From Arthrobacter gandavensis (GTDB lineage Bacteria; Actinomycetota; Actinomycetes; Actinomycetales; Micrococcaceae), in contig NZ_VTFU01000002.1 of the NCBI RefSeq assembly GCF_009192735.1, positions 186,001 through 250,000 on the forward strand: DNA of 64,000 bases, in the 5' to 3' direction. Positions within the stretch are counted from its first letter, which is position 1. Each line of letters opens with the position of its first letter. Of this stretch, positions 30,498 to 43,594 are shown in pieces. Position numbers and translations under genes: made by a program. Below the pieces are notes generated by a model. That model was given only the letters and a program-made list of their open reading frames with translations. It was not told the DNA's origin and ran no database searches.

Positions 30498-30611
30498 TCT
30501 TCCCCCTGGTGGCACCGGAATCCGGGACTGCGCAGCCCCGGACGTGCAATCGCTGCCATTGTTAACCACAAATCAGCGGAAGGAAACGGTGTTTTTGGCG
30601 AAATTCCAAAG

Positions 30612-30620
30612 TGTGGATAA
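30612..30620 (-). promoter_or_regulatory. DnaA-box-like 9-mer upstream of the SAF/CpaE-like operon
   Basis: The minus strand reads TTATCCACA, identical to the DnaA box consensus, 115 bases upstream of the SAF gene start. The only other copy I noticed lies upstream of cpaF (2234-2242). A lone box is not an origin; it could be a DnaA-responsive promoter element or chance. Confidence 0.3.
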
Positions 30621-30701
30621 CTTGGCCGGAGCACCAGCCGGGATGGGAGACTAAGCATCAGTGCGGTGGAGGGAAACAGCTAATGGAAGCGAAGTGGCTA
30701 C

Positions 30702-30935
30702 GTGGGTGAGAAAAGATTCCTGACGCTGGCTGATGTCGGTGAGGTTTTGAACATATCCTCCTCGCAGACCTACGCCCTGGTGAGGTCGGGCGAACTGCCG
30801 GCCATCCAGATTGGCGGCAGGGGCCAGTGGCGGGTGGAATCCCGCGTACTGGAGGAATTTATCACCGAGGCCTACCGCCGCTCTGCCGCCGCGCAGCGCG
30901 AGGACGCTCCGGAAAGCGCTGCCTCGGAGCAGTAG
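30702..30935 (+). CDS. Small MerR-like/excisionase-type HTH DNA-binding protein (BldC-like)
   Basis: The protein is 77 aa, essentially one winged-HTH: 'FLTLADVGEVLNISSSQTYALVRSGELPAIQIGGRGQWRVESRVLEEFI', with a basic/acidic C-terminal tail. It belongs to the HTH_17 group that includes BldC and AlpA/excisionases. It lacks any phage genes nearby, so a BldC-type housekeeping regulator is likelier than an excisionase. The start is GTG at 30702 with a poor ribosome-binding site. BldC binds runs of direct repeats as head-to-tail multimers. A striking phased repeat array lies 700 bp downstream (31631-31684). Confidence 0.82.
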   Translation: MGEKRFLTLADVGEVLNISSSQTYALVRSGELPAIQIGGRGQWRVESRVLEEFITEAYRRSAAAQREDAPESAASEQ

Positions 30936-30975
30936 CGCCACAAACCGCAGCGGGACGGGGCAACCAGGGGCCTGG

Positions 30976-31524
30976 TTATGCGCCCGAGGATACCGCTGCC
31001 ACGGCGTGCAGGGGCACCACTGCTGTCCCCCGGACATTTCCAGACCGCCGGGGTTCGCCCCGCGGTGTCAGGGACAGTTCAAAAAAATCCTTCCCGACCC
31101 GGTCGATGCTGCCGGCGAGGGCGGCCGACGCCGGCTGCCCGGCCGGATACACCTGGACCTCGGCCCGGTCCCGGGACAGTCCCCGCAGTGCGGAGGCGAG
31201 CCCCAGCCGCGCCTGCGGCGCATCGACCGCGGAGAACCGGTCCATACCGGCGATGAGCACCACATGGCCGAGCGCGACAATGGCCGGCCGCCGCCCGTGA
31301 AGCGCAATCCATCCCCGGCCCACGTGGCTGAGAACCCCCTCAAAGGAACCGGCCACCCCAACGTCCACTTTCAGGGGCCTTCCCATCTGGCTCTGCAGCC
31401 GTGCGCCAAGATCAATCCCGGCAAAATCCGTCCGAAGCCGCTCGGACACCTCCGAGTCCTGAACCAGCTGGTGTGCGGAGGCCAGCTGGGCCTCCATGTC
31501 GGCAAAAAGGGCGTCCCATCGCAT
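30976..31524 (-). CDS. Conserved actinobacterial protein of unknown function
   Basis: The protein is 182 aa, soluble. A short helical N-terminus ('MRWDALFADMEAQLASAHQLVQDSEVSERLRTDFAGIDLGARL') precedes a beta-rich region ('VDVGVAGSFEGVLSHVGRGWIALHG..PAIVALGHVVLIAGM') that looks like a small barrel, perhaps Sm-like. A second similar strand set follows at 'GSIDRVGKDFFELSLTPRGE'. I do not recognise a named domain. It is divergent from the LysM gene, and the phased CAAAC array lies in their shared 202-bp upstream region. Confidence 0.7.
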   Translation of the reverse strand: MRWDALFADMEAQLASAHQLVQDSEVSERLRTDFAGIDLGARLQSQMGRPLKVDVGVAGSFEGVLSHVGRGWIALHGRRPAIVALGHVVLIAGMDRFSAVDAPQARLGLASALRGLSRDRAEVQVYPAGQPASAALAGSIDRVGKDFFELSLTPRGEPRRSGNVRGTAVVPLHAVAAVSSGA

Positions 31525-31630
31525 GGGCTCAGGCTAACTGGTCGTGAGGATCCCAACCATGGCTGACCGAACCAAACAATCCCAAAACCACCCTAGACAG
31601 GCTGCCACTCGGCATGTAGACAAGGGCCAC

Positions 31631-31684
31631 CAAACGTTTTCAAACCGCTTCAAACTCAGCAAACCGCATCAAACGGCACCAAAC
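31631..31684 (+). repeat. Six CAAAC repeats phased at 10-10-9-10-10 bp
   Basis: CAAAC starts at 31631, 31641, 31651, 31660, 31670 and 31680, about one helical turn apart. All copies point the same way, with varying bases between. A seventh isolated copy starts at 31573. The array sits 43-96 bases upstream of the LysM gene ATG and opposite the divergent unknown gene. It resembles a cooperative binding site for a head-to-tail multimeric regulator such as BldC. Confidence 0.8.
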
Positions 31685-31726
31685 GACTTCTAACACATCC
31701 GCCGCGGCCCCAAGAGGAGGGTTGAC

Positions 31727-32500
31727 ATGAAACACCTTGTGCGGGACCTCCTGGTCCTGGCAGCAGGCTTTGCGGCAGCCGTGGGCCTCCTCGTGCTTGG
31801 ACTGGCAATCCGTCCGGATCCGCAAACGGTCTTCTCCGGCTCGGTGTCATCGCTGCAGGGGCTGGCGGGGTTTGCGGCCGCCGCCGCCGGACTCGCCGTC
31901 GCCTTGTGGTGGACTGCGGGGGTTGTCCTGGCGGTGGCCGCAGCCATCTTTCAACGGGCAGGACATGCCGCCGCCGCAGCAGCAGCGGGAGCGCTGGCTC
32001 CCGCGTTCATGAAACGCCTCGCTGCCGCTGTCGTTGGCATTAATCTCATAACCGGCGCCGGCGCTGCCCAGGCCGCGGATCCCCTGCCTCCCGCAAATCC
32101 CGGACACAGCGTTTCCCTGCCGCAAAGCCCACACAACGCAGCCGTCCATCCGCAGTGGGGGCCAACCACGCAGATGAACGGCCTGCGCGCCGGAACGGAT
32201 GACCGCGGCTCCGGTGCGGAAGCCCCGCCCTCTCCGCACTGGCAGCCAAACGGGCAACAACCCTCCACGAACGTCTTTATCCGTCCCGGACGGTCAGACG
32301 CAACAGCACAGACCGTGATTGTCCGTGCCGGCGACTCCCTGTGGACCATCGCTGCCGGGCAGCTTGGACCGCTGGCCACCGACGCGGAAATCGCGGCGCA
32401 CTGGCCCCGCTGGTACGAACGGAACCGGGAGATCATCGGCGGCAATCCGCACCTGATTATTCCCGGACAGGTTTTGGAAGCACCCGAACTGCCCCAGTAA
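31727..32500 (+). CDS. Membrane protein with C-terminal LysM domain
   Basis: The protein is 257 aa. Three hydrophobic segments (about 5-25, 38-65, 82-107) are followed by a Pro/Ser/Gly-rich extracytoplasmic stretch and a LysM domain, 'VIVRAGDSLWTIAAGQLG...WPRWYERNREIIGGNPHLIIPGQVLEAP' (about 200-255). LysM binds N-acetylglucosamine polymers, so this protein probably tethers to peptidoglycan. AGGAGG lies five to six bases before the ATG. It is followed on the same strand by the Rv3235-like gene, an order conserved in Micrococcaceae as I recall. Confidence 0.82.
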   Translation: MKHLVRDLLVLAAGFAAAVGLLVLGLAIRPDPQTVFSGSVSSLQGLAGFAAAAAGLAVALWWTAGVVLAVAAAIFQRAGHAAAAAAAGALAPAFMKRLAAAVVGINLITGAGAAQAADPLPPANPGHSVSLPQSPHNAAVHPQWGPTTQMNGLRAGTDDRGSGAEAPPSPHWQPNGQQPSTNVFIRPGRSDATAQTVIVRAGDSLWTIAAGQLGPLATDAEIAAHWPRWYERNREIIGGNPHLIIPGQVLEAPELPQ

Positions 32501-32622
32501 CGCCAGGGGTGTCACCAGCGCCCGGCAGGCACCGCCCAGTATTGTCCACCCGTCATCCCCCCATACCCGGAAATCCCCCAGGCGCCCGGCCATAACGGGC
32601 GCGGCAGGAAAGGACAGCCGCC

Positions 32623-33249
32623 ATGACCACCGTGATTACTTTCCCCGTTCAGGAAGCAGCCGAAGAACTCGCCGCGGCATCCGGAGCCCCGCGGCCACTG
32701 ACAGTGCACCGCATCCCCGTCACCGGGTACTCAGCGGCGGGCGCCCCACCGGTGAAACACCGCCCGCTCCGGGCCGCTCCGGAGCCCCTCCGACAGGTTC
32801 CCGAAACCGGTCCGGGTGCCCCGGAACCTGCCCGCTGGCTCAGCAGCCCGGAGGACGACGCGCGGGTGAACGCGATAGCCCGGTCAGTCACCCAGGCGGC
32901 GTTGGAAGTTCTGGGAGGGACACGTCCCCTGCAGCAAATGGCCCGCTGGCTGGACCCGGCCACCTTTGAGCGCCTTGCGCTGCGGGCCAATCTGGTCCGC
33001 ACCAGGGAACCGGGCACGGCCGGAAGCTGTTCCGGTTCCAGCCGCAGCGGTGCCGGGGAGAAAAGTCCGGCGGTGCCGGTGCGCCTGCACCGGCAGGTCG
33101 TCATCCGCTGCTGCCGGATCTGCCCTGTGTCCGAGGGGGTTTATGAAGCATCAGTGGTTGCGGCGGAACAAAGCAGAGTCCGCGCCGCGGCTCTACGGAT
33201 AGAGCTGCGGCGCGGACTCTGGAAAATCACCGTCCTGGAGATCGGCTAG
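32623..33249 (+). CDS. Rv3235-family protein
   Basis: The protein is 208 aa. Its N-terminal half is low-complexity, rich in Pro, Ala and Arg. The conserved C-terminal part ('RVNAIARSVTQAALEVLGGTRPLQQMARWLDPATFERLALRANLVR', then 'RVRAAALRIELRRGLWKITVLEIG') matches the Rv3235 family that lies next to secA in many actinobacteria. Function is unknown. ATG has AAAGGA upstream. The last 75 bases contain a 21-bp inverted repeat (33175-33220) that also acts on the convergent secA gene. Confidence 0.8.
   Translation: MTTVITFPVQEAAEELAAASGAPRPLTVHRIPVTGYSAAGAPPVKHRPLRAAPEPLRQVPETGPGAPEPARWLSSPEDDARVNAIARSVTQAALEVLGGTRPLQQMARWLDPATFERLALRANLVRTREPGTAGSCSGSSRSGAGEKSPAVPVRLHRQVVIRCCRICPVSEGVYEASVVAAEQSRVRAAALRIELRRGLWKITVLEIG
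33175..33220 (-). terminator. 21-bp inverted repeat inside the Rv3235-like gene, probable secA terminator
   Basis: Arms 33175-33195 and 33200-33220 are complementary with one mismatch, and the loop is only 4 nt. On the minus strand the hairpin lies 75 bases after the secA stop and is followed by GCTTTGTT. It is wholly within the Rv3235-like coding frame, whose stop comes 27 bases later. Confidence 0.7.
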
Positions 33250-33294
33250 CCGGAGACGATCCCGGCCTGCCGTGTACCGGGCACGGGCCCTGCA

Positions 33295-36054
33295 CTACTT
33301 GCGGCGCTTGCTTTTCTTCTGAGCCGCTTTGCGGTTCTGGTCGGACACGGCAGCTCCAGCCGCCTTCTCCGTCTTGGGAGAAGCCGTCCGTTCCACGCGC
33401 GTCTCCACGCCGCCTTCGGTGTTCGGAGCCGAGAACTGCAGGCTTGCGGGCTGCTTTGGCGTCTCGAGGCCAGCCGCGGTGATGGTCGGCTGGCCAACAA
33501 CACCGCGGCCGTCCTTCAAACCGGCCAGGGCAGGGGGTGTGTCCGCCGCCGGCTGGTTGACCTTGACTTCGGCATTGAACAGGTAGCCGATGGACTCCTC
33601 GCGGATGGCCTCGGTCATGGTCTGGAACATCACGAATCCTTCGCGCTGGTACTCCACCAGCGGATCGCGCTGCGCCATGGCGCGCAGGCCGATTCCTTCC
33701 TTGAGGTAGTCCATCTCGTACAGGTGCTCCTGCCACTTCCGTCCGATCACGGAGAGCACCACGCGGCGTTCCAGCTCACGCATCGCCGGCGCGCCGAGCG
33801 CATCCTCGCGTGCCTGGTAGGCCAGCCGTGCGTCCGAGAGGATCTCTTCCTGGAGGAACTCGCGGGTGACCTTGGACCGTCCGCCGGTTTCCTCGACGAC
33901 CTCGTCGATGGTCAGGCCAACCGGGTACAGAGTCTTGAGGTTCGTCCAGAGCTGCTCGTAGTCCCAGTCATCTCCGTGGCCCTCGGCTGTGGCTTCGTTC
34001 ACGATGGACGTGACGACATCCTCGAGGAAGAACTGGACCTTCTCCTGCAGGTCATCACCCTCAAGGATCCGGCGCCGGTCGCCGTAGATGGCTTCGCGCT
34101 GGCGGTTCAGGACGTCGTCGTACTTCAGGACATTTTTGCGCTGCTCAGCGTTCCGCCCCTCCACCTGCCCCTGGGCGTTCTGGATGGCCTTGGAAACCAG
34201 CTTGGACTCAAGCGCGACGTCGTCGGGCATGGATGAGCTGTTCATGATGCGCTCGGCGGCACCGGAGTTGAACAGCCGCATCAGGTCGTCGGTGAGCGAG
34301 AGGTAGAAGCGCGACTCCCCCGGGTCTCCCTGGCGGCCGGAACGGCCGCGCAGCTGGTTGTCGATGCGCCGGGATTCGTGGCGTTCGGTTCCCAGCACGT
34401 ACAGGCCGCCCAGATCGATGACTTCCTGCTGCTCGGCGGCAACCGCTTCGCGTGCCTTTTCCAGGGCGTGGGGCCATGCGGCTTCGTACTCTTCCGGGTT
34501 TTCGCTTGGGTCAAGGCCCCGGCGTTCCAGCTCGGCGATGGCGTTGAATTCGGCGTTCCCGCCGAGCATGATGTCGGTGCCACGGCCGGCCATGTTGGTG
34601 GCTACGGTGACGGCGCCCTTGCGGCCGGCTTGGGCGACAATGGCAGCTTCACGTGCATGGTTCTTGGCGTTCAGGACCTCGTGCCGGATGCCTGCCTTGG
34701 CCAGCTGTTTGGAGAGGTACTCGCTCTTTTCCACGCTAGTGGTGCCAACCAGGATCGGCTGTCCGGCGGCGTGGCGCTCGGCGATGTCCTGGACGACGGC
34801 GTCGAACTTGGCAATCTCGTTCTTGTAGATCAGGTCGGGCTGGTCGATGCGGGCCATCGGCCGGTTCGTGGGAATGGGCACCACGCCGAGCTTGTACGTG
34901 CTCATGAACTCGGCCGCTTCGGTCTCGGCCGTACCGGTCATGCCGGAGAGCTTCTCGTAGAGCCGGAAGTAGTTCTGGAGCGTCACAGTGGCCAGCGTCT
35001 GGTTCTCCGCCTTGATGGTCACGCCCTCTTTGGCTTCGATTGCCTGGTGCATGCCTTCGTTGTAGCGGCGGCCCGCGAGGATGCGGCCGGTGTGTTCATC
35101 GACGATCATGACTTCGCCGTTGAGGACCACGTAGTCCTTGTCCCGCTTGAACAGTTCCTTGGCCTTGATGGCGTTGTTGAGGAAACCGATGAGGGGGGTG
35201 TTCGCGGACTCGTAAAGGTTGGAAATGCCGAGGTAATCCTCGACTTTTTCGATGCCGGATTCCAGCACGCCCACGGTGCGCTTCTTTTCGTCCACTTCGT
35301 AATCGGTGTCCAGGGTCAGACGCTGGACCACCTTGGAAAACTCCGTGTACCAGCGGTTGACGTCGCCGCTGGCAGCTCCGGAAATGATCAGTGGCGTCCG
35401 GGCCTCATCGATGAGGATGGAGTCCACTTCATCGACGATGGCGAAGTGGTGGCCGCGCTGGACCAGCTCCGCGGCGCTCCAGGCCATGTTGTCCCGAAGG
35501 TAGTCGAAACCGAACTCGTTGTTGGTTCCGTATGTGATGTCCGCTGCGTACTGTTCGCGGCGGATGGCCGGGTCCTGGTTGGACAGGATGCAGCCGCTGG
35601 TCATGCCCAGGAAACGGAAGACACGGCCCATCAGCTCGGACTGGTACTCCGCGAGGTAATCATTAACCGTCACGACGTGCACGCCGCGGCCGGTCAGCGC
35701 ATTGAGGTAGGCGGGCGCGGTGGCGACGAGGGTCTTACCCTCACCGGTCTTCATTTCGGCGATGTTCCCCAGGTGCAGGGCAGCGCCGCCCATCATCTGG
35801 ACATCGAAGTGACGCATTCCCAGGGTGCGTCCCGCCGCTTCACGTACGGCGGCGAAGGCCTCCGGAAGCAGGTCGTCCAGGCTCTCGCCGTCGGCGTACC
35901 GCTCCTTAAAGCGGTCCGTCTCCCCCCGGAGTTCGGCGTCCGTCATGCCCCTGTACTCATCCTCGAGCACGTTGATCGCATCGGCGTAGTTGCGCAGCGT
36001 CTTCAGCGTCTTCTTATCGCCTGTGCGAAGAACCCGTTCGAGTAGTGATGCCAC
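33295..36054 (-). CDS. secA: Preprotein translocase ATPase SecA
   Basis: The protein is 919 aa, the housekeeping SecA1 type that drives proteins through SecYEG. Walker A is '[11 protein letters not shown]' near residue 105, the DEAD-like motif is in '[22 protein letters not shown]', and motif VI-type regions are '[11 protein letters not shown]' and '[12 protein letters not shown]'. The helical scaffold and wing follow. The C-terminal linker ends in basic 'QKKSKRRK' with no zinc-binding Cys cluster, as is usual in actinobacteria. Context (Rv3235-like, hpf, comF, lpqB) matches the mycobacterial secA1 neighbourhood. Confidence 0.98.
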
Positions 36055-41219: not shown

Positions 41220-42945
41220 CGGTTTTCTCCTCCACTGGTGGTGCCGGGGCGGCAAGGGCCCTGGTGCCCGGGGCGCCGTCATACGGTGAAAGCGGCACGG
41301 GCGAATCCGAGAAGGGGACGCCGTTGCGGCGCGGCAGGGTGAGCCGGAAACAGGCACCGTCGCCGGGACGGCCCCACGCCTGCAGCTGGCCGCCGTGCAG
41401 CAGTGCGTCCTCGACCGCGATGGACAGCCCAAGGCCGCTTCCCCCGGTTGTCCGTGCGCGGGCCGGATCGGCGCGCCAGAAACGGTCGAAGACCCGGGAT
41501 GCTTCGTCAGCGGTCATGCCGATGCCGTGATCCCGCACCGCCACCGCAACCGCGTCGATATTGGAGCCGATGGCGATTTCAATGGGCTGGCCTTCGCCGT
41601 GTTCCAGGGCATTCACGAGCAGGTTCCGGAGAATCCGTTCGATGCGTCTGGGATCGGCGTCAACCATGCAGCTTGTCTCCTTGGAGACGATGGTGACCTC
41701 TGAACCGATGTTCAGGGCAAGCGGTTCCGTGGCTTCGATAACTTCCCGGACCACGGTGAAAATGTCCGTGGGCTCCAGATCCGGGGAGGCGGCCCCGGCG
41801 TCGAACCGGGAGATCTCCAAGAGGTCGGCAAGCAGCGCCTGGAAGCGCTCAACCTGGTGATACAGCAGTTCGGTGGACCGGCGGCTGATGGGATCGAAGC
41901 CGTCGCGGGCGTCGTAGAGCACCTCCGCGGCCATGCGGACCGTCGTCAGCGGGGTGCGCAGCTCGTGGGAAACGTCGGAAACGAAAACCTGCTGCATGCG
42001 CGACAGCTGGGCCAGCTGGGTGATCTGGTCCTGGAGAGTTGCGGCCATCCGGTTGAACGAGGCCGCAAGGCGCGCGACGTCGTCCTCGCCCTTGACCACC
42101 ATGCGTTCCTGGAGTTCACCGGCGGCGAGCTTTTCGGACACGGCCGCGGCATCGCTGACGGCGCCCACTCCGGCCTTCGCCACAATCCAGGCGATCGTGC
42201 CGATGATAACCAGCATCAGCCCGCCGGCAATCCACATGATGCGGTGGATGTCATCCAGCGTCTGCTGCATGGATTGCAGGTCATAGATCAGGTAGAGCGC
42301 GTACTCGGCCCGGTCCGGAGGCAGGGTCACTTTGGTGCCGAAAGCCAGGCCGGGTTCGCCGTGGGCCAGCGCAAGCGGAGACCAGTGAATCGTGTCCTGC
42401 TCGCTGTTGACGTCGATGCTGCGGACGGACTCGCTCAGCACGGAAGGAATGCTGCCGGCGGTGATCCCCTCGCCCAGGGTCTGGGTGACAAAGAGGTTCT
42501 GTTCCTGGCCCGGGATGGGAGTCAGCAGGTACAGCCGACGTGCATCGGCGCCCTGTCCCTCAAGCAGTGAAAGGGTGTTGGAGACCAGCCGCTCCGTTCC
42601 TTCACGGTCCGTTGCCGCAGTGGTCCGGAAGTTCTCCTTGGCTGAGTTAAGTCCAGCGGTTGCCTCGGACTGGAACTGGCTCAGGCGCTCCTCATAGAGG
42701 GCACCGGCAATCTGGTGCGATAAAAAGGCTCCCACTCCGGCGCAGGCCAAAGTAACCAGCAGCAGGGTGGAGACCACCGTCTTGAACAGCAGGGACCGGC
42801 GCCACCGGCGCACAATGCGCTGGAACGTTACCCTGCGCAGCGTATCCCGGAGGTGCCTGAGGATCCGCACCGCCGCCGGCAGGACCTCGGTCTTCAGGAC
42901 CGAGGTCCGCGAGCGCCTAGCTCTGACCGGCTTTGTAACCGACAC
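41209..42945 (-). CDS. mtrB: Sensor histidine kinase MtrB
   Basis: The protein is 578 aa. A basic cytoplasmic N-terminus, a first helix at about 50-75, an extracytoplasmic domain of about 150 residues, a second helix near 235-255 and a HAMP domain come first. The phosphoacceptor 'VSDVSHELRTPLTTVRMAAEVLYD' and the HATPase 'GIGMTADEASRVFDRFWRADPARARTTGGSGLGLSIAVEDALLHGG' follow. MtrB governs MtrA, which controls cell wall hydrolysis and division genes. The start overlaps mtrA by 29 bp; the operon order is mtrA-mtrB-lpqB. Confidence 0.95.
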   Translation of the reverse strand: MSVTKPVRARRSRTSVLKTEVLPAAVRILRHLRDTLRRVTFQRIVRRWRRSLLFKTVVSTLLLVTLACAGVGAFLSHQIAGALYEERLSQFQSEATAGLNSAKENFRTTAATDREGTERLVSNTLSLLEGQGADARRLYLLTPIPGQEQNLFVTQTLGEGITAGSIPSVLSESVRSIDVNSEQDTIHWSPLALAHGEPGLAFGTKVTLPPDRAEYALYLIYDLQSMQQTLDDIHRIMWIAGGLMLVIIGTIAWIVAKAGVGAVSDAAAVSEKLAAGELQERMVVKGEDDVARLAASFNRMAATLQDQITQLAQLSRMQQVFVSDVSHELRTPLTTVRMAAEVLYDARDGFDPISRRSTELLYHQVERFQALLADLLEISRFDAGAASPDLEPTDIFTVVREVIEATEPLALNIGSEVTIVSKETSCMVDADPRRIERILRNLLVNALEHGEGQPIEIAIGSNIDAVAVAVRDHGIGMTADEASRVFDRFWRADPARARTTGGSGLGLSIAVEDALLHGGQLQAWGRPGDGACFRLTLPRRNGVPFSDSPVPLSPYDGAPGTRALAAPAPPVEEKTDAS

Positions 42946-43594
42946 CGCGCACCGTCAGGACTATTTCGGGTGCTTCGGGATCGCGCTCAATCTTGGAACG
43001 GAGCCGCTGCACATGGACATTGACCAGGCGGGTGTCCGCGGCATGGCGGTACCCCCACACCTGTTCAAGCAGCATTTCACGGGTAAAGACCTGCCACGGT
43101 TTACGCGCCAGGGCCACCAGGAGGTCAAACTCCAGCGGGGTCAGCGAAATGGTTTCCGCGCCGCGGGCAACAACATGGCCGGCAACGTCGATGGAAACTT
43201 CGCCGATGCTGAGGGATTCGGGGGTCTTGGTGTCACCCGGACGCAGCCGGGCCCGCACCCGTGCCACGAGCTCCGCAGGCTTGAACGGCTTGGGCACATA
43301 GTCATCGGCGCCGGATTCGAGACCGCGCACGACGTCGGAGGTGTCGGACTTCGCGGTCAGCATGACGATGGGGACGTCCGACTCGCTGCGGATCTGCCGG
43401 CACACCTCGATGCCGTCGATGCCGGGGAGCATGAGGTCCAGCAGCACCAGGTCGGGCTTTGAACTGCGGAAGATCTCCAGGGCCTTGGAGCCGTCCGCGC
43501 AGAAGACAGGGTCGAACCCGTCGTTGCGGAGCACAATTCCGATCATCTCGGCCAGTGCTTCGTCGTCGTCCACGACCAATATGCGTGCCTTCAT
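42917..43594 (-). CDS. mtrA: Response regulator MtrA
   Basis: The protein is 225 aa, an OmpR-type regulator. The receiver domain has the phosphoacceptor Asp53 ('LVLLDLMLPGIDGIEV'), acidic pocket 'VVDDDE' and Lys in 'LTAKSD'. The winged-helix domain ends 'HVQRLRSKIERDPEAPEIVLTVRGVGYKAG'. High identity to mycobacterial MtrA is evident by eye. The 267-bp region upstream also carries the divergent GPDPase-membrane operon and contains one GTCACAG sequence (minus strand, 43736-43742), a possible autoregulatory half-site. Confidence 0.97.
   Translation of the reverse strand: MKARILVVDDDEALAEMIGIVLRNDGFDPVFCADGSKALEIFRSSKPDLVLLDLMLPGIDGIEVCRQIRSESDVPIVMLTAKSDTSDVVRGLESGADDYVPKPFKPAELVARVRARLRPGDTKTPESLSIGEVSIDVAGHVVARGAETISLTPLEFDLLVALARKPWQVFTREMLLEQVWGYRHAADTRLVNVHVQRLRSKIERDPEAPEIVLTVRGVGYKAGQS

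Follow-up and report, generated by a model that had tools for sequence, protein, structure and literature searches.

What reads a row of phased CAAAC pentamers in front of a LysM-type gene in Arthrobacter gandavensis, and with what effect on that gene? In the window (the whole 64,000-nucleotide stretch that was analyzed), six CAAAC units occupy 31631..31684 of the plus strand, starting at 31631, 31641, 31651, 31660, 31670 and 31680 with a spacing of 10-10-9-10-10. This ladder was delimited by motif positions, shuffles, a genome scan and profile matches at 31630-31658 and 31659-31686. A seventh plus-strand CAAAC at 31573 is followed exactly 10 bp downstream by an in-phase CAAAA at 31583, and this upstream pair (31573..31587, plus strand) lies directly 5' of a putative -35 hexamer. 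The seventh unit is kept in relatives: it is present in 8 of 10 aligned close rows, equal to 7 of 8 distinct genomes with the window's own counted, two rows being duplicates (L048 of L021 and L049 of L023). An earlier sequence-only reading had described the six units, all in one orientation, and the seventh, and every one is where it was placed.

That reading also held the array to be improbable by chance, which is borne out. A search for three CAAAC at 9-11 bp returned four overlapping matches in the window, all within the array, and none in 100 dinucleotide shuffles; in the 3.72-Mb assembly the ladder is the sole one of its kind. By a rough analytic estimate, the chance that any part of the genome would carry six CAAAC at 9-11 bp is about 2e-10. 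It is the phasing that is unusual, since single CAAAC is not enriched in the window (87 copies against 97 expected). The genome has 15 CAAAC pairs at 9-10 bp, comprising five of the array, two others at exactly 10 bp and eight at 9 bp. No CAAAC regulon was found in this genome, and both non-array pairs at exactly 10 bp sit in coding sequence.

Gene neighborhood and promoter geometry

The order of the genes at this locus is conserved in relatives. The gene at 30702..30935 (plus strand) encodes a 77-aa protein, the presumed regulator, that exceeds the curated cut-offs for HTH_17 (PF12728, 43.5 bits, cut-off 27) and for an excisionase-type family (TIGR01764, 31.1, cut-off 28.8), which makes it a HTH_17/excisionase-type winged HTH protein. 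A 182-aa gene of no known family (30976..31524, minus strand), recognized from the ORF list, family searches and gene order in relatives, is divergent from the LysM-type gene (31727..32500, plus strand, 257 aa), the presumed target. The LysM label is weak: the product matches LysM models of NCBIfam at scores under the cut-offs and, at E 0.001, nothing in Pfam. The presumed operon continues with a 208-aa DUF6459 gene (32623..33249, plus strand; PF20060, 88.4 bits, cut-off 27), downstream of which secA lies on the minus strand. All 29 genus genomes, with that of the window counted, have relatives of the HTH, 182-aa and LysM genes together. mtrA is encoded at 42917-43594, 11 kb from the ladder. 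An Rfam search of 30500-33300 gave three matches, every one under its gathering score.

A putative -35 (TAGACA, 31594..31599) and a putative -10 (TAGACA, 31617..31622), both on the plus strand, separated by 17 bp and backed by comparison with relatives, in which the position of the -35 is conserved, precede the ladder, which begins 8 bp beyond 31622. Good -35/-10-like sequences, by a simple score of our own, lie 5' of the lattice in 55 of 79 loci with a lattice, an order that is partly built in because the promoter search covered only sequence upstream of the ladder. The gap from the -10 to the first unit is most often 2 or 4 bp (8 loci each), followed by 8 (7), 27 (5) and 10 bp (4), and the rest range from 1 to 46 bp. 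The near-consensus hexamers and 17-bp spacers support the promoter reading; a strict consensus scan, in which the -10 had to end in T, detected none at the LysM site. Our guess for the lysM transcription start is about 31629-31630. The sequence-only reading had set the ladder upstream of the LysM gene; relative to the promoter it is not upstream, and it likely sits at or after the transcription start, in the presumed 5' leader.

Phasing in relatives

Within the genus, an exact three-unit ladder is found at the LysM locus in 5 of 29 genomes (G000, G004, G007, G018 and G027), and many others carry a partly degenerate lattice at this site. Away from the LysM locus there are nine three-unit CAAAC matches in 7 of the 29 genomes. 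The expectation that phased CAAAC is not common elsewhere in the window's genome holds, as it has no other such ladder.

The phasing itself is conserved. The regions upstream of LysM relatives, taken from the start of the 182-aa gene, numbered 79 and were reduced to 70 non-redundant ones. They contain 96 pairs of CAAA 10 bp apart against a shuffle mean of 1.0, counts that are not independent and are inflated by relatedness, as the regions share ancestry. At 20 bp there are 52 pairs (0.9 in shuffles), at 19 bp 17, at 29 bp 22, at 30 bp 21, at 39 bp 17 and at 49 bp 14, with only 0-2 per distance at 12-17 bp.

The regions are also strongly biased in strand, with 246 CAAA against 9 TTTG. Since AAA recurs every turn, phased A-tracts could curve the DNA without any specific protein. 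This is very improbable, as the phasing is limited to CAAA: TAAA, GAAA, AAAA and the T-strand words are unphased. A phased A-tract bend is contradicted by this dependence on the flank of the tract, and because CAAA alone is phased, on one strand, the ladder is directional and sequence-specific beyond mere curvature.

Many more distant actinobacteria retain a CAAAC-N5-CAAAC pair at the same promoter. Among the 80 of 515 related loci listed as matching the HTH protein in a scan, phased units follow the HTH gene at a distance of about 0.55-0.9 kb (1.4 kb in one case) in most Arthrobacter records, Kocuria, Rothia kristinae, Luteimicrobium, Acidothermus, Frankia, other Frankiales, a Pseudonocardiales and some Nanopelagicales records; none were seen past the HTH gene in the Nocardioides loci, in Rothia koreensis or in several single records. 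The Nocardioides HTH gene is not linked to LysM, and 7 of 10 genomes have CAAAC-N5-CAAAC before a LysM gene elsewhere; the remaining three have no profile match at LysM, their matches being off-locus.

A candidate reader and its proposed mode of action

The 70 regions carry direct repeats on one strand with a period of about one helical turn, an arrangement to which BldC, Xis and Apl also bind. BldC is a small winged-HTH protein that binds asymmetrically, head-to-tail, to one-strand direct repeats about one turn apart and variable in number, with operators in Streptomyces at whiI and smeA-sffA and about 280 genomic sites with the repeat AATTXXXX(C), according to passages of PMC5859096. HTH_17-type proteins such as BldC and Xis are described as binding direct repeats head-to-tail (in parts of PMC5859096 and PMC11963761). 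Apl of phage 186 binds one-turn direct repeats with high cooperativity and has seven operators between promoters, which it represses (sections of PMC7498355). We file the ladder and HTH protein, on their sequences, as a candidate member of this class of cooperative direct-repeat operators. Apl, Xis and Cox are recombination directionality factors, whereas here the pair occupies a conserved chromosomal locus beside secA.

The sequence-only reading had called the 77-aa protein BldC-like, which seems correct only in the sense of remote kinship. In hhalign the two proteins align with a probability of 42% and an E of 0.00027 (25% identity over 40 columns), and the columns of BldC residues K26 and R30 hold S and A. 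A phmmer search of the protein against PDB returned nothing at E 1; the HTH profile gave four weak matches, BldC not among them, the best being Gp37 (4j2n, E 0.13), named Pukovnik Xis in the part of PMC11963761 that concerns it. The 77-aa protein appears to be a remote relative of BldC and not an orthologue. We rejected a strict BldC site, given the S/A in place of the contact residues and a repeat of CAAAC rather than AATTXXXX(C); here there is one ladder per genome, in contrast to the roughly 280 sites reported for BldC in the cited passages.

Which protein reads the ladder was approached through co-occurrence. Sampling by DUF6459 alone gave 62 matches, spread over 53 of the 296 phylum genomes, and 40 loci were used. 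A ladder profile (E<=1) matched five of the 40, all among the six with a typical HTH gene, and two DUF6459 loci, L148 and L150, are part of the profile's training set directly or through L213. The sixth, L144, has a TAAAC/CAAAC pair instead of a profile match. The profile matched none of three loci with a diverged HTH protein without the GGRGQWRVE wing, and none of 31 without an HTH gene. The profile alignment used 51 of 52 rows, L028 being left out by choice with its third unit out of register; its invariant CAAA columns prove nothing, because rows were picked for CAAA[CT] pairs.

A scan of 296 genomes of the class (ladder profile E<=0.3, HTH protein E<=1e-14) found both in 53, the ladder only in 10, the HTH protein only in 75 and neither in 158. 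The HTH protein is thus present in 53 of 63 genomes with a ladder match versus 75 of 233 others (Fisher 7e-14, kinship ignored), and at E 1e-14 it is absent from 168 of 296. These matches are not all independent of training because training rows overlap the class genomes: they include the window's genome and the loci of G167 and G232, some training loci may be of the same species as class genomes, and L197 and L243 look identical. The 75 HTH-only genomes are not read as lacking a ladder, because the profile is weak for two-unit sites. In 30 genomes the match lies 109-976 bp downstream of the HTH gene on the same strand. The 53 genomes with both include off-locus matches (e.g., G113, G539 and G578), and others among them are probably unlinked cases of the Nocardioides type or chance matches. 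Six of the ten ladder-only genomes were inspected, and one, G402 (a MAG contig), has its match at the LysM locus.

Of 29 class-scan loci that were collected (L234-L262), 22 carry HTH, LysM, DUF6459 or 182-aa genes. The matches at the seven with none of these (L238, L246, L251, L253, L257, L259 and L262) are treated as chance. L238 has at its center CAAAC and related units 10 bp apart directly 5' of an ATG, off LysM and in a genome without the HTH protein; its match is due either to chance or to another system.

Could another protein be the reader? MtrA, encoded 11 kb away, binds direct repeats of about one-turn period (passages of PMC5650626), a form that the ladder shares, and the window's genome encodes a second small HTH protein of 70 aa (L214:513-725, minus strand), of the same superfamily as the 77-aa protein and a possible paralogue. 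We nevertheless regard either as an improbable reader, as the presence of the ladder tracks the 77-aa protein. The mtrA gene is also probably common among genomes that lack the ladder, which counts against MtrA. The MtrA repeat, GTTACC/GTNAC-like and two per site in those passages of PMC5650626, is by eye unlike the CAAAC ladder, and an MtrA box was rejected on this ground.

We consider it probable, from comparison of sequences, that the ladder serves the 77-aa HTH_17 protein as an operator, with head-to-tail stacking of the protein along it and, probably, repression of the LysM-DUF6459 operon as the outcome. Each monomer would occupy one CAAAC, all in the same orientation and one helical turn apart, with cooperative stacking like that of BldC, Xis and Apl. 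In the LysM-DUF6459 transcript the site would reach from about +2 to +55, and two more units lie directly before the -35; given this coverage, the most likely effect of a bound filament would be to obstruct RNA polymerase. Binding, cooperativity, repression and the transcription start are all inferred. The earlier pairing of ladder and nearby HTH protein is partly upheld, with conservation, co-occurrence and CAAAC-type pairs before the HTH gene elsewhere pointing to it.

HTH residue 36 offers a hint of covariation with the base before CAAA: where the residue is K, that base is G in 24 of 29 loci, and where it is Q, in 0 of 47. A tree of the 182-aa neighbor (71 loci given, 68 usable; 5 of 76 dropped as duplicates or second site) shows three changes of residue 36 and leaves only one to three independent residue-base pairs.

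CAAAC pairs upstream of the HTH gene and a possible circuit

In a distant group (f9), nine genomes encode the protein, and in seven of them (L201, L202, L205, L206, L208, L209 and L211) the HTH gene itself is preceded by a CAAAC-type pair. These pairs run against the covariation, with K accompanied by T or C. Downstream of the pair, close to the start codon, there is often a TGCTATCGT-like sequence reminiscent of the extended -10 of a leaderless gene. The f9 pair precedes a promoter-like sequence, read by eye, near the HTH start. In 111 non-redundant regions upstream of HTH genes, CAAA is paired at 10 bp 14 times on the strand of the gene, against 0.3, and 0 times on the other strand. G514 has one ladder match just 5' and one just 3' of the HTH gene. 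These sequences suggest that the 77-aa-type protein probably also controls its own gene in some lineages.

The f9 arrangement bears on two other explanations. The HTH protein may bind the ladder and activate, or just organize the local DNA; RdfS and MerR-type relatives can activate (passages of PMC11963761), and the f9 pair lies upstream of a promoter-like sequence. The LysM ladder comes after the -10, at distances that differ among loci, which a block fits better than activation does, and we judge this alternative unlikely. The ladder might instead be read in the 5' leader of the transcript, with Rho, the ribosome or a binding protein as possible readers, given that it lies within the presumed leader and on the coding strand in both the LysM and HTH contexts. 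An RNA element of this kind seems quite doubtful: a 10-bp lattice kept at 20, 30 and 40 fits the DNA helix, and the f9 pair, preceding the promoter-like sequence read by eye close to the HTH start, would fall outside that transcript.

In the window, only one CAAAG (30607) precedes the HTH gene, and an exact DnaA-box sequence (30612..30620, minus strand) lies next to it. Of 125 loci, 42 have an exact DnaA box (TTATCCACA, either strand) in the 200 bp before the HTH gene, and 76 have one with up to one mismatch; many of these loci are related, yet both orientations occur. The background elsewhere in the same loci is 0.0016 per 210 bp. This over-representation is why we propose that the HTH_17 gene may be under DnaA. 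Speculatively, and on balance doubtfully, an operator-bound HTH_17 protein could belong to a circuit found across much of the class, in which it controls itself under DnaA and its filament on a nearly single CAAAC ladder gates LysM-DUF6459, tying envelope growth to replication initiation.

An eye-catching repeat becomes a testable candidate regulator-operator pair in many actinobacterial genera, and ladders of two to six units across genomes offer a natural series on filament length versus control. The pair also hints at where to look for the role of LysM, DUF6459 and the 182-aa protein, an unstudied set of genes beside secA and mtrAB; no prior account of the subject was found in an open-licence PMC library. 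Among the records, one titled Vibrio cholerae strain 35D (L063) has an Arthrobacter-type HTH, LysM and secA locus complete with a ladder, and the assembly looks mislabelled or contaminated.
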